64,000 nucleotides of DNA, taken from assembly GCF_014764505.1 (NCBI RefSeq), contig NZ_JACXWX010000008.1, positions 124,001-188,000 of the forward strand. The letters are read 5' to 3'. Made by a program: the position numbers and the translations under genes. The DNA is from Phormidium tenue FACHB-886. Its GTDB lineage: Bacteria; Cyanobacteriota; Cyanobacteriia; Elainellales; Elainellaceae. Under the pieces are notes generated by a model. It was not told the origin of the DNA. It searched no databases and saw only the letters and a program-made list of their open reading frames with translations. Below, in pieces: positions 28,203-33,058 of this stretch; within the stretch, counting starts at the first letter, position 1, and every line of letters begins with the position of its first letter.

Positions 28203-29360
28203 TCAAGAGGTTCTCCGCCGGAACACAAAGCCATTCGCAGTAGACGATCGCCATCGCAGCCCGATCGCCAGTCCCACCAGCAGGATTAGCGTCAGATAAA
28301 CCAATGAAATTAACCGTCTAGCCAACGGTGGGGCAATGCTTGTCACCTCGATCGCTTTAGTAACTTGAAACGGCTGAAACTGGCGAGCAGACTGCGGCTG
28401 TGGCGCAACTTCCACCTGCACCTGATGCGGTACACCATCAAAAAACTCCTGCTGCCAGGTGAACTGTCCATTTGCATCCGGGCGAGTTTGCAAGGCGAAG
28501 GCAGTCCAGCCGTCTTCTAGCGAGGTAACTTTGATGTTCAATAAAACATCTGTGACAGGCTGATTCCGCTCAGCTTTGATTTGAGCTATCAGCGTTGCAG
28601 GTTGCCCAACCATTGCCGCCCCATCACCCGCCAGCTGCACCGTTAACCCTGATGATTTCTGTAGGGGCTGAGCAACTATCTCAGCAGGATGCTCGTGGTG
28701 CTGGACAAAAGCACTACTCAAGTTCACAGCAAGCAGCGCCAGAATTGCGGCGATCGCCGCACCGCTGAGCAACAGCCGTACCTGTGGCGGGGCAATTTCT
28801 CCTGGTCGGATGGTTTGCTGCCCGCCAATTAGCCAGCCGCCGCCGATTCCGGCTAGCAGCACAACTAGCACCAGAATGCCTGCATTGCGATACTTGGCTG
28901 GATTTTCAGAAACGGGCAGCGTTAGAGTCTGCTGAAAGGGAGCAAACTGAGCTGGAGCAACGGGGGTCACCCCAACAACAAGCCGATAGGTGCCCCGAAT
29001 AGGCAACATTTGCTGCAGCTGAAGGGCACCATCGGGAGCGGCCGTCTCCAGATCCAACATCTTCGTTCCTTCGACGATCGGAAAATCTGTGGTTAGCCAG
29101 GGGGTAGGGGATGGCGTAAATAGCTGTAGGTGCAGGTTGGCATTAAGGGGTTGCCCTGCCCGATCGGTTGCCTGTAGGCTCAACTGAGCTGGCTTTTGAG
29201 GGGTGGTGGCTCCTGCCTCAAAGGGAATCAACTGCTGGAGCGGCGGTGCAATCAGCCGAACGGCAGGTTGCGAGACCTGAGCTATTCCGATCGCGCAGCA
29301 TAAACTAGTACCCATCAGCACAACCGCGCCGATGAACAGAAAAGGGTTGAATTTTGACAT
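28203..29360 (-). CDS. Unrecognised membrane protein with two extracytoplasmic beta domains, in the B12-riboswitch operon
   Basis: No confident family. The ATG at 29360 gives 385 residues; the open frame extends 16 codons further. The N terminus is a signal or anchor (FLFIGAVVLMGTSLCCAIGI). An exported domain of about 120 residues with beta-rich, Ig/YtkA-like character follows. Then come two adjacent membrane segments (ILVLVVLLAGIGGGWLIGG and AAIAAILALLAVNL), a His-containing loop (VQHHEHPAE), a second beta-rich domain, and a last membrane segment near the C terminus. It is the second gene after cbtB under a cobalamin riboswitch, the place where cbtA or another cobalt transporter part would be expected. 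A cobalt-handling role is inference. Confidence 0.78.
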   Translation of the reverse strand: MSKFNPFLFIGAVVLMGTSLCCAIGIAQVSQPAVRLIAPPLQQLIPFEAGATTPQKPAQLSLQATDRAGQPLNANLHLQLFTPSPTPWLTTDFPIVEGTKMLDLETAAPDGALQLQQMLPIRGTYRLVVGVTPVAPAQFAPFQQTLTLPVSENPAKYRNAGILVLVVLLAGIGGGWLIGGQQTIRPGEIAPPQVRLLLSGAAIAAILALLAVNLSSAFVQHHEHPAEIVAQPLQKSSGLTVQLAGDGAAMVGQPATLIAQIKAERNQPVTDVLLNIKVTSLEDGWTAFALQTRPDANGQFTWQQEFFDGVPHQVQVEVAPQPQSARQFQPFQVTKAIEVTSIAPPLARRLISLVYLTLILLVGLAIGLRWRSSTANGFVFRRRTS

Positions 29361-29398
29361 GAAGTTTCTAAAGGGAATTGAATGGCAAGCGATCGTGC

Positions 29399-29581
29399 CT
29401 AGTGACAAGCAATTCCCAGCGTGTGATGCCGCAGCGAATGAGCAGCGCTATGAACGGCAGGGGCATTTGAGAAAAAAAGCGTCCAGAGCGTCAGCACACA
29501 CAGCACTGTGTAGAGAGTCATCTGCCCCGAGCGAGACAGCGTAAGCTGAACGGTGCGCTTCCAAGTAGAAGAGTAGGTCAT
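29399..29581 (-). CDS. cbtB: CbtB-like small membrane protein (predicted cobalt transporter subunit)
   Basis: A 60-residue protein with one membrane segment (about 20-40) and the CbtB tail VHSAAHSLRHHTLGIACH, whose spaced histidines and final Cys-His are the family hallmark and suit cobalt or nickel binding. GAGG lies 6 bp before the ATG at 29581. A cobalamin riboswitch is immediately upstream, as for many predicted cobalt transporters. The usual partner CbtA is not next to it; an unrelated membrane protein gene follows after 38 bp. The transport role is predicted for the family, not shown. Confidence 0.85.
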   Translation of the reverse strand: MTYSSTWKRTVQLTLSRSGQMTLYTVLCVLTLWTLFFSNAPAVHSAAHSLRHHTLGIACH

Positions 29582-29614
29582 CTGTTACCTCGCAGATGGA
29601 GTGGATAAGTGACG

Positions 29615-29740
29615 ATCGGCGGGCATCCTGGCTATGAGAAAGCTGCTTTTGGCGTTTCTCATTCACAGTTGCGGGACAGCGTTGGACTTTCACCAAACTT
29701 TCCCCGTTAGCTTTGGCGGCTGCTCCCCGCCAAAACCGAT
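29615..29740 (-). ncRNA. Cobalamin (B12) riboswitch
   Basis: On the minus strand the sequence carries the aptamer landmarks in order: GGGGAAAG, TTGGTGAAAGTCCAACGCTG, CCCGCAACTGT, and near the 3' end AGCCAGGATGCCCGCC. The closing stem P1 forms between ATCGG (29736-29740) and CCGAT (29615-29619, both in plus-strand coordinates). It ends 33 bp before the cbtB start, and no terminator hairpin lies between, so binding of adenosylcobalamin probably blocks translation of cbtB and the next gene. Confidence 0.93.
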
Positions 29741-29848
29741 TTCAGTGCTTGATCATATCACTACCAGTGTTCTGCAAGAGAGCATTGTCTTCAATTGATA
29801 CATTGCGATTGCCAATGGCTTTAGATTCGGGAGCTCCTGATTTCCAGA

Positions 29849-29896
29849 ATAATTGTTGTGTGAGAAGGACTCCCGTCCTTCTCACACAACAATTAT
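29849..29896 (-). terminator. Long perfect hairpin after the copper operon
   Basis: A 22-bp perfect stem with a 4-nt loop (29849-29870 and 29875-29896), 66 bp past the cupredoxin stop and before the riboswitch. It separates the two operons. Confidence 0.8.
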
Positions 29897-29962: not shown

Positions 29963-30529
29963 CTAAGCTGGGATTGCAGCTTTAGTTTGCTCTGGCATAG
30001 CCGTCTCCACTTCAATCTCGCCTCGAAACATATTCATGCCGCAGGTAAACGTGTGGGTTCCTGGTTCGGTGGGGGTGAACTCGATCGCCGTTGTCTGGTG
30101 GAGCGGTAGGGCTTGGGCGATGTGAAAATCGGGCAGACGAACCTCTTCCAGGCAGCTGCTAGGGTCTTGGCGATTGAACTTCAGCCGCACCGGTTGCCCT
30201 GCCCGCACCACAATGCGGCTCGGCTCATAGCCGCCATCCACAGTTACCGTTACTTCCTGAATACCATCGGCTGCAGCGGCTTTCTGGGACTTGGGCTTGC
30301 TGAGCAGGAACCACCAGAGTTCCAACCCAATTAAGCCCAAACCGCCGATCGTGACGGCAACCCTGTTGCCCAAAGGCTGCTCAATCTGCTGAAACTGTCC
30401 TCCGCCGTCAGAGGCGTGCTGCATTGAGTCCATCGAGTGTCCGGGCATTTCAGCGGCGGTTGCGCCAATCGCCCCTAGCAAAACCCCAAAGCCTGCTAGC
30501 ATTCCTATTGCTTTTAATACTGCTTTCAT
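29963..30529 (-). CDS. Membrane-anchored cupredoxin-domain protein of the copper operon
   Basis: 188 residues. An N-terminal signal-like segment leads into a Met/His-rich stretch (MPGHSMDSMQHAS) typical of periplasmic copper sites. A membrane segment follows (VAVTIGGLGLIGLELWWFLL), then a cupredoxin domain (about 90-175: GGYEPSRIVVRAGQPVRLKF to HTFTCGMNMFRGEIEV). The C-terminal CGMNM and the His residues of PDFHIAQALPLH may form the copper site. It is 14 bp after copA with GGGAGG before its ATG, so it is the last gene of copZ-copA-cupredoxin. A role in receiving or storing exported copper is likely. Confidence 0.85.
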   Translation of the reverse strand: MKAVLKAIGMLAGFGVLLGAIGATAAEMPGHSMDSMQHASDGGGQFQQIEQPLGNRVAVTIGGLGLIGLELWWFLLSKPKSQKAAAADGIQEVTVTVDGGYEPSRIVVRAGQPVRLKFNRQDPSSCLEEVRLPDFHIAQALPLHQTTAIEFTPTEPGTHTFTCGMNMFRGEIEVETAMPEQTKAAIPA

Positions 30530-30543
30530 TAAAACTACCTCCC

Positions 30544-32805
30544 TTATCCCAGTGCTTTGGGCTTAAAGTTTCGCAGCCGTAGTGCGTTTGTCACCACAGA
30601 AACAGAGCTAAACGCCATTGCCGCGCCGGCAACGATCGGGCTAAGCAGCCAGCCAAAGATCGGGTAGAGAATGCCAGCGGCGATCGGAATCCCCAGAACG
30701 TTGTAGATAAAGGCAAAGAACAGGTTCTGCCGAATATTTCGCAAAGTTGCCCGTGAAAGCTGAATTGCAGTAACAATGCCCTGTAGATCGCCGGAGATGA
30801 GTGTAATATCGCTAGCGGCGATTGCCACATCGGTTCCTGTGCCGATCGCCATCCCCACATCGGCTTGGGCAAGGGCGGGTGCGTCGTTGATGCCGTCTCC
30901 CACCATGGCAACTCGCTTGCCTTCTGCCTGTAGTGCTGCCACCTGCGCGGCTTTTTGATCAGGGCGGACTTCTGCCATGATGCGACGGATGCCCACTTCC
31001 TGCGCGATCGCCTCAGCGGTGCGGCGGTTATCGCCAGTTAGCATCACCACTTCCAAGCCCAGCTTCTGCAGGGTGCGAATCGCCGCCGCCGAAGAAGGCT
31101 TCACCGCATCAGAGATGCCCATAATTCCCTCTGCTCTGCCGTCTACTGCAATCCAAATTACTGTTTTGCCGATCGCCTCCAAGCGATCCCAGTGTGGTCG
31201 CAGAACGGTGGTGTCGATGCCCAGCTCGTTCATCCAACGGTGGGTGCCAATTTGTACCTGGCGGTCAGCCACATAGCCTTGAACCCCACTGCCTGCGATC
31301 GCGACAAAATTTCTCGCGTCGGCTGATTCGGCGCCTTGATCTTGGGCATACTGCACAACTGCTTCTGCCAGCGGATGCTCTGAGTTGCGCTCAACCGCCG
31401 CCGCCAGCCGCAGTAAGTTAATCTCGTTGCGGTTTGCCGTTCCCTTCGTTGTAACAAAATCAGTAACCGTAGGTTTACCCTGTGTGATTGTTCCTGTTTT
31501 ATCTAGAACGATCGCCTGTAGTTTATGTGCCTGTTCCAGGCTTTCTGCGCTTTTAATCAAAATTCCATTCTCTGCACCTTTGCCCGTACCAACCATGATG
31601 GAAGTCGGCGTCGCCAAACCGAGGGCACAAGGACAGGCGATAATCAACACTCCCACGGTTGTAATGAGCGCCATTGTCACATTGCCCATGACGTTGTACC
31701 AAAGGATAAAGGTGGCGATCGCCACTGCCATCACTACAGGCACAAACCAGCCTGTCACCCGATCGGCAAGCCGTTGAATTGGGGCTTTAGAGCCTTGCGC
31801 CTGCTGCACCAGCTTCACGATTTGCGCCAGGAACGTATCTTTACCCACGCGAGTGGCGCGGAATTTGAAGCTGCCTGTTTTATTAAGGGTGGCACCGATC
31901 ACCTCATCCCCGACCTGCTTTTTCACAGGCACACTTTCACCCGTAACCATTGCCTCATCGATCGTCGAACCGCCTTCGACAATTTCCCCATCCACTGGAA
32001 TCTTTTCACCCGGACGCACTAGAATCACATCGTCCAGGACAACCTCAGCGATCGGCACATCTACGGCTTGCCCGCCCCGAATCACCCGTGCGGTTCTTGC
32101 CTGCAAGCCCACCAGCTTCCGGATCGCTTCAGAGGTTTGCCCCCTAGCGCGATTTTCCAGCAAGCGCCCCAGCAAAATTAGCGTAATAATTACCGAAGCG
32201 GCTTCATAATAAACATCCGGCGCTAATCCTTGGGCAGTGAACCAGCCAGGGAACAGGGTGGGGAATAGAGAATAAACGTAAGCGGTTCCTGTGCCGATCG
32301 CCACTAGAGTATCCATTGTGGCACTATGGCGTTTCAGCGCCTTCCAAGCGTTAACAAAGAAGACGCTACCACACCAAAACAGCACCGGAGTCGTTAGGAG
32401 CAACTGCAGCCAGGAATTGTGCAGCCACATGGGAATGAACGGAATTGGCAGCCCCAGCATCATTGGCAGCGAGCCAAATACGAGAACAGCGCTGACAATT
32501 CCGCTGACCCACAGCTTACGAGTGAGCTTGCGGCTCTCAGCTTGGCGGCCTTGCCGTTCTGCGTCGTCTTCCTCGGCAAACAGATCCTGCATCGGCTGCG
32601 CCGAGTAGCCTGCTGCATCCACAGCATTTTGAATTGTGGCAATGTCGGTTTTGTTTGTGTCATAGGTGACGCTTGCCTGCTCTGCGCCAAAGTTGACGCT
32701 GCTCTCGCTCACACCTGGAACCGCTCGAATTGCCTCCTCAACACTGCGGGCGCAGGCAGCACAACTCATCCCCCGCAGCTTTAAATTTGTTATTTCGTTT
32801 GCCAT
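30544..32805 (-). CDS. copA: Copper-translocating P1B-type ATPase
   Basis: Exports Cu(I) using ATP, 753 residues. One N-terminal heavy-metal domain carries [11 protein letters not shown]; eight membrane segments are expected. The transport motif is [11 protein letters not shown], the phosphorylation site [11 protein letters not shown], the nucleotide-domain His-Pro pair NSEHPLAEA, and the hinge [16 protein letters not shown]. The CPC and the C-terminal membrane residues (YN in [14 protein letters not shown]) fit the Cu(I) subgroup. GGGAGGGAG precedes the ATG. It lies 55 bp after copZ. Confidence 0.96.
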
Positions 32806-32860
32806 TGCTCCCTCCCTTGTCCTTCAAACCTTGCTACCGCTTTGCGCGGTAAGTGCAGCT

Positions 32861-33058
32861 TTAGGCTGCAACGGTATATCCTGCTGCTGTGATCGCCTCT
32901 TTCACAGATGCTTCGGATTGCTGCGTGTCTACGGTGACCAATTTGGTTTTCGGGTCAGCGGTAACTGAAGCGTTGGGATCGATCGCTTTCAAGGCTTGCG
33001 TAATTGTCTCGCCGCAAGCAGAACAGGCCATGTTAGGAACAGTCAATTGCAAAGTCAT
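32861..33058 (-). CDS. copZ: Copper chaperone, HMA-domain protein (CopZ-like)
   Basis: A 65-residue Atx1-like metallochaperone. The metal-binding loop is MACSACGETI near residue 10, and the rest fits the ferredoxin-like HMA fold (ASVKEAITAAGYTV end). It delivers Cu(I) to the ATPase encoded next. AAGGA lies 8 bp before the ATG. It is the first gene of the operon and is preceded by a MerR-type promoter. Confidence 0.93.
   Translation of the reverse strand: MTLQLTVPNMACSACGETITQALKAIDPNASVTADPKTKLVTVDTQQSEASVKEAITAAGYTVAA

Follow-up and report, generated by a model that had tools for sequence, protein, structure and literature searches.

A cobalamin riboswitch, cbtB and a 385-residue membrane protein gene in Phormidium tenue: a candidate cobalt-uptake unit that shares a chromosomal site with CbiMNQO in related cyanobacteria

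Cobalt is a requirement for the many cyanobacteria that make B12-type compounds, and their known importers of this metal are mainly CbiMNQO and HupE. The locus described here, from Phormidium tenue FACHB-886, raises the question of what a cobalamin riboswitch controls when the gene behind it is cbtB and the next gene encodes not CbtA but a 385-residue membrane protein, here termed X. It lies in a stretch of 64,000 nucleotides, the whole of which is called the window, and a sequence-only reading of this stretch had proposed X as a new cobalt-uptake partner of CbtB. The features of the locus, in window coordinates, are:

29849..29896, no strand assigned: perfect 22-bp inverted repeat with a 4-nt loop, between a copper gene cluster and the riboswitch
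29601..29754, minus strand: cobalamin riboswitch aptamer (RF00174, 51.2 bits, E 7.6e-10, model positions 1-189)
29579..29598, minus strand: 6-bp hairpin CAUCUG/CAGAUG, probable expression platform (RNA fold)
29399..29581, minus strand: cbtB, 60 aa, one transmembrane helix, C-terminal His/Cys tail (PF09489)
28203..29360, minus strand: X, 385 aa (ATG at 29360, stop at 28203; from translation)

The full B12 aptamer claimed by the sequence-only reading was recovered by the covariance model, which it matches over its full length and above the cut-off of 31.5 bits, and a chance riboswitch call is ruled out by the RF00174 scans. The 33-bp spacing to cbtB given with that claim depended on the reading's own boundary; the aptamer match ends 19 nt before the cbtB ATG (29581). 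Directly 3' of the aptamer stands CATCTGCGAGGTAACAGATG, a sequence capable of forming a hairpin whose loop contains the Shine-Dalgarno motif GAGG (29591-29588) and whose stem includes the cbtB start codon. As a fold alone this hairpin is unremarkable (-6.9 kcal/mol, z -1.3 against shuffles), and when 81 nt of context are added a different fold is favoured over it. All 19 leaders compared carry the sequence TGCGAGG immediately after the aptamer (17 before cbtB, one before a DUF1636 gene of the same genome and one before the CbiMNQO genes of genome G352, locus L099), and local 26-nt folds place the Shine-Dalgarno within a hairpin loop in 14 of them. The terminator scan listed no terminator between aptamer and cbtB. 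For the cobalamin riboswitch class, both the off direction, in which B12 represses, and the loop-loop lock are established, and we read the architecture of these leaders as probable translational control through the loop-loop contact of the class.

The product of the first gene, described at the outset as a 60-residue CbtB-like protein with a His/Cys tail, is just that: it scores 33.3 bits against Pfam CbtB (PF09489; gathering cut-off 27) and 22.5 bits against the CbtB equivalog TIGR02459, which is under the NCBI cut-off of 64.4. The tail, VHSAAHSLRHHTLGIACH, follows the motif H-x3-H-x2-R-H-[H]-T-x4-C-H, in which the histidines at -17, -13, -9 and -1 are invariant among the 40 copies compared and the cysteine at -2 is kept in 39.

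X begins 38 nt after the end of cbtB, and an alternative TTG start at 29408 would lengthen it to 401 aa. Its character as a 385-residue membrane protein stands, with an open reading frame of that length and four hydropathy peaks at about residues 10-21, 163-175, 197-213 and 350-363 (averaged over 28 homologues), and its layout is an N-terminal helix, a beta domain, two helices, a His loop, a second beta domain and a C-terminal helix. Of the two exported beta domains and the His loop first proposed, the loop is present and contains QHHEH; the domains are visible in the structure prediction that had been suggested, a low-confidence AlphaFold model built on a two-sequence alignment (mean pLDDT 58.8, pTM 0.49), and the positive-inside rule would place both of them, and the loop, in the periplasm. 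The best part of the model is beta domain 2 (residues 234-340), which matches macroglobulin and other Ig-like folds with Z up to 7.8, a level common to many models; this domain was chiefly what the fold search probed, the rest of the model being barely covered. Asp92, Glu97, Asp308 and His312 are invariant in all 28 rows of the alignment A1, and His222 is kept in 26, the split X of genome G334 (loci L029 and L035) and the pseudogene of G352 (L033) having been left out of these rows.

Profile searches place X in no established family. No Pfam family matched it at E up to 1, and no NCBIfam family came near its cut-off. The 28 homologues together matched 18 Pfam families at E up to 0.2, with CbtA, CbiN, HupE_UreJ and DUF4198, the family of NikK, not among them; a relation to CbiN or to NikK/NikL at the level of the fold may still exist. 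Two weak leads each involve nine of the 28 homologues, namely YtkA-like (best E 0.0024) and the permease subunit TIGR03943 (best E 0.0005). A PDB profile search with X gave nothing convincing, the best matches being a repeat protein (E 0.0003, with no single significant stretch) and then transthyretin (0.3).

The gene pair is conserved. X is present in 28 of 386 cyanobacterial genomes, its own included, and so is not a chance reading frame; near-full-length homologues share 43-54% identity. CbtB was matched in 25 of the 386 genomes, every one of them among the 28 with X. The three other X genomes comprise two in which cbtB lies upstream of X by sequence (L011, L009) and G352, where all that is left of X is a remnant interrupted by a stop. 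Apart from one pseudogene, every X is preceded by cbtB, on the same strand and within about 500 bp, and this holds for both X loci of G376. A contig scan with X alone added a single relative, in Aphanothece (L005).

The pair also occurs on plasmids. Relatives of X were found in 15 plasmid records, all cyanobacterial, of which 14 cover at least 80% of X and eight are typed as conjugative. In the 12 of these that were examined, H5 and H9 being taken as near copies and H15 being a fragment, cbtB stands upstream of X without exception, in one case unannotated. The surroundings include genes for P-type ATPases, Nramp, a metal transporter, a multicopper oxidase and ArsR. The multicopper oxidase is close to cbtB-X in six of the 12 loci (L113, L114, L118, L119, L121, L123), in five of which it is beside a gene annotated as a metal transporter or zupT. 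Two-component genes are near the pair on L115, L120, L121, L122 and L123, and are annotated rppA/rppB in L115, L121 and L123; RppAB we take to be the nickel sensor NrsRS.

The distribution of the riboswitch is uneven. At gathering score RF00174 precedes cbtB in eight of the 29 chromosomal X loci of the 28 genomes (the window, L009, L010, L011, L015, L024, L031 and L032), and also in the Aphanothece locus and in eight of the 12 plasmid loci. Most of the remaining loci belong to family f6, presumably Nostocaceae, two f6 matches sharing coordinates with plasmid copies of Anabaena cylindrica and Scytonema. Outside this family the riboswitch is before cbtB in seven of eight genomes (the exception is G280); among f6 chromosomes it is found at L009 alone, and among Nostocales plasmid loci in none of four. 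A search for hidden riboswitches at E up to 5, over 65.6 kb from 16 loci lacking a gathering-score match (15 of them f6), gave none, and in our reading the alignment of upstream regions shows only a promoter-like stretch. In genus g21, the cbtB leaders of L007 and L008 have lost the aptamer core and retain just the 3' part, and L009 has the whole leader; the two partial leaders look like riboswitch decay.

Evidence on function comes from what else occupies the place of cbtB-X in relatives. In Nostocaceae, a block of genes for an FTR1 permease, a ferritin-like protein, a helix-hairpin-helix protein and a multicopper oxidase is followed, in the opposite direction, by CbiM-CbiN-CbiQ-CbiO at L092, L093, L110, L141 and L144, and by cbtB-X instead at others (e.g., L095, L096, L111, L145, L146). 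The names CbiM, CbiN, PDGLE, FTR1 and oxidase come from Pfam scans of L092, and 'ferritin-like' is our own reading. At several of these loci a second importer comes next, consisting of a CbiM with a PDGLE domain, CbiQ and CbiO. Within genus g79 (L141 with CbiMNQO, L096 with cbtB-X) both flanks are 82-87% identical in DNA, and within genus g21 (L144 and L146, respectively) 82-89%, with different genes between them. In G430 (L147) the two systems stand in tandem at this site, cbtB-X lying between the oxidase and CbiMNQO, possibly as an intermediate of the exchange. In G488 (L153) a 121-column stretch directly downstream of X is 70% identical to the cbiO of L144, possibly a scar. Since cbtB-X occupies the same site as a complete importer, the exchange is added evidence for metal uptake. 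The multicopper oxidase is near cbtB-X on the Nostocaceae chromosomes of L094-L098, L106, L108, L109 and L111, and on chromosomes of this family it also borders CbiMNQO.

The two systems also tend to exclude each other. Of 145 f6 genomes, 103 have a CbiN match and 61 an X match, with seven of the X matches classed by hand as broken (split, fragmentary or with stops). The 54 genomes with intact X divide into 25 with CbiN and 29 without, and those lacking an intact X into 78 and 13; put the other way, 29 of the 42 genomes lacking CbiN have an intact X, versus 25 of the 103 that possess CbiN (Fisher p 1.0e-6, uncorrected for ancestry). A genus-stratified test gave z -4.3 after seven of the 145 genomes, which have neither system and whose genus was not shown, were dropped, a step that biases the result towards significance. 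Eleven genera hold both an X-only genome and a CbiN-bearing one, and six of the seven broken X genes are in genomes with CbiN. The exclusion is real but partial, since 25 of the 54 intact-X genomes retain CbiN.

The exchange site has a regulatory aspect as well. No RF00174 match over the cut-off was found at the six CbiMNQO loci beside the multicopper oxidase (L092, L093, L110, L141, L144, L147), nor at the CbiMNQO locus L142, nor for cbtB-X at the oxidase site (L096, L146, L147). Elsewhere in the same family CbiMNQO is preceded by RF00174 at 54.5-61.1 bits in four genomes (L099, L101, L102, L154; 11 CbiMNQO loci were scanned in all). Both occupants of the exchange site thus seem to be outside B12-riboswitch control, which fits the idea of interchangeable parts; with neither under a riboswitch, the assignment to cobalt at this site comes solely from CbiN, described in the available text of PMC2667541 as specific for cobalt uptake. 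As an aside, there seem to be two regulatory classes of CbiMNQO in Nostocaceae, one riboswitch-controlled and at varied sites, the other riboswitch-free and beside the oxidase.

From this evidence, riboswitch, cbtB and X probably constitute a cobalt-uptake unit that is repressed by B12 and able to substitute for CbiMNQO. Abundant adenosylcobalamin would bind the aptamer and lock the Shine-Dalgarno hairpin, so that translation of cbtB stops; when B12 is scarce, CbtB and X would be produced. The switch itself is established by homology. The periplasmic tail of CbtB may then capture Co2+ and hand it to X, whose beta domains and four helices, together with the CbtB helix, could form an entry path through the inner membrane. 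Because no ATPase is encoded with the pair, membrane potential or trapping in corrin synthesis is proposed as the driving force. In this way cbtB-X would do the job of CbiMNQO, which it may have replaced or outlived at the same site in several cyanobacterial genera.

The partnership proposed by the sequence-only reading is accordingly strengthened by the conserved pair, the lack of a CbtA over the cut-off, the riboswitch and the exchange with CbiMNQO, the last of these and the spread on plasmids being evidence that the earlier reading did not have; cobalt as the metal, the direction of uptake, a CbtB-X complex and X as the membrane path are what we infer from it. X could serve as the permease, as a subunit that captures metal, or as an aid to a different importer. 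That it founds a new family of cobalt permeases, working with CbtB as an ATPase-free importer interchangeable with CbiMNQO and spread on conjugative plasmids, is offered tentatively, as a possibility falling somewhat short of an even chance. Weighing against the main reading are the lack of a riboswitch over the cut-off for either system at the exchange site, the merely partial exclusion between X and CbiN, the presence of CbiM and HupE in most X genomes, the scarcity of the riboswitch in Nostocaceae, the proximity of the window pair and two plasmid copies to a copper-type ATPase cluster, and the poor model of X, with a common beta fold as its best part.

Other cobalt importers are indeed frequent in these genomes: CbiM was matched in 25 of the 28, HupE in 21 and a NicO-family protein in 11, and CbiC, taken as a B12-pathway gene, in all 28. 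In P. tenue itself, contig C1 encodes CbiM and a PDGLE protein along with CbiQ and CbiO (the last two identified by similarity), and HupE is present as well, so the window unit need not be the sole importer of this genome. An alternative is that CbtB and X are accessory proteins which capture metal, much as CbiN or NikK/NikL do, and supply it to a CbiM-type ECF importer whose genes lie elsewhere, such as the one on contig C1. The frequency of CbiM and the beta domains, predicted to be periplasmic as in capture proteins, would suit such a role, as would the position of cbtB-X upstream of CbiM(PDGLE)-CbiQ-CbiO, no more than about 4 kb away on the same strand, in eight of 18 mapped X regions (L094-L098, L108, L109, L150). 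However, CbiM(PDGLE)-CbiQ-CbiO is equally found beside CbiMNQO where X is absent (L092, L093, L110, L141), so this neighbourhood is not a distinctive feature of X, and three genomes (G167, G191, G197) carry cbtB-X without a CbiM match. This role is considered unlikely. G197 combines the riboswitch and cbtB-X with no match to CbiM, HupE or CbtA, and has one NicO-family match of 79.7 bits.

The surroundings of the window locus bring copper into question. Upstream of the riboswitch, on the same strand, are genes for an HMA (heavy-metal-binding) protein, a copper-type P-type ATPase and a cupredoxin, and downstream of X, on the opposite strand, one for an AraC-type regulator. The order and strand of this HMA-CopA-cupredoxin trio (window 29963-33058) before cbtB-X are matched in a plasmid of Chondrocystis NIES-4102 (L119, 1262-4528), and a similar trio lies near the pair on pOSC7112.01 (L112, 1-2832). 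The 22-bp inverted repeat, which is not among the terminator-scan results, is probably a terminator dividing the copper cluster from the riboswitch-cbtB-X unit.

Such neighbours could mean that cbtB-X handles copper, nickel or another metal within a metal-handling island, the link to the riboswitch being incidental, and the metal-related genes around the plasmid copies and the lack of a detectable riboswitch for either system at the Nostocaceae exchange site point the same way. Against this, the cobalamin riboswitch stands directly before cbtB in many lineages, and a switch turned off by B12 suits cobalt uptake, not copper export; in the window the inverted repeat stands between the unit and the copper genes, and across loci the neighbours vary while cbtB is constant. 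The copper reading is weaker than the cobalt one, and a role in other metals appears very improbable. Equally hard to credit is a periplasmic store, sensor or delivery complex for cobalt or corrinoids that moves no metal across the membrane, which would account for the missing ATPase, for the lack of any permease family over its cut-off and for there being only one helix in CbtB and four in X, but fits less well than uptake with the same-site exchange for a complete importer and with the annotation of CbtB as an importer subunit.

A B12-repressed cobalt-uptake unit would have several relatives in function. With CbtAB (PF09489/PF09490) it shares the small one-helix CbtB, the His/Cys tail and the place of cbtB as first gene after a cobalamin riboswitch, but the second gene is X rather than CbtA. 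The check for a cbtA elsewhere found none over the cut-off in P. tenue or in the other 27 X genomes (PF09490; weaker matches in five of the 28), and the weak match in P. tenue (23.6 bits) was set aside as unconvincing, since it lies in a long reading frame with a His tract that does not seem to resemble CbtA. The unit is thus filed as B12-controlled cobalt uptake with CbtB, distinct from CbtAB. In the available text of PMC8123684, cbtBA is suppressed 43-fold by B12 in a strain given as 'denitrificans ATCC 13867'; transcriptional control is inferred there, and a figure legend shows a ribosome-site hairpin. CbiMNQO, an energy-coupling-factor cobalt importer, is alike in its chromosomal site and, at other sites, in its riboswitch, but has four subunits including an ATPase, of which cbtB-X encodes none, and X has no match to CbiN. 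NikK and NikL of NikKMLQO, according to the sections available of PMC2667541, are extra components of Co/Ni importers that replace the N subunit, but DUF4198 is absent from the matches of the X homologues. Cyanobacterial HupE is a secondary importer, riboswitch-linked and tied to cobalt (PMC4284471, available text), and genome G014 carries a truncated hupE immediately after X; HupE differs in having six helices (same source), and HupE_UreJ is likewise absent from the X matches.

In its available sections, a 2009 survey that included 16 cyanobacteria (PMC2667541) lists for them no further predicted cobalt transporter of the CbtAB sort, and full-text searches, with most subscription papers outside them, gave no paper on the cbtB-X pair among the matches listed. 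The pair is a candidate for B12-controlled cobalt uptake, with related strains differing in which of the two systems occupies a shared site; if this is true, CbtB, an old and little-tested prediction, gains a second and different partner. Beyond the window aptamer, the P. tenue genome has two further RF00174 matches. One is a cobalamin riboswitch of 54.4 bits before the DUF1636 gene, of unknown function, whose leader was among those compared (L001, 1029-1664), and the other, of 29.7 bits and under the cut-off (L003), precedes a sulfite-reductase-like gene that we name cobG from its context.
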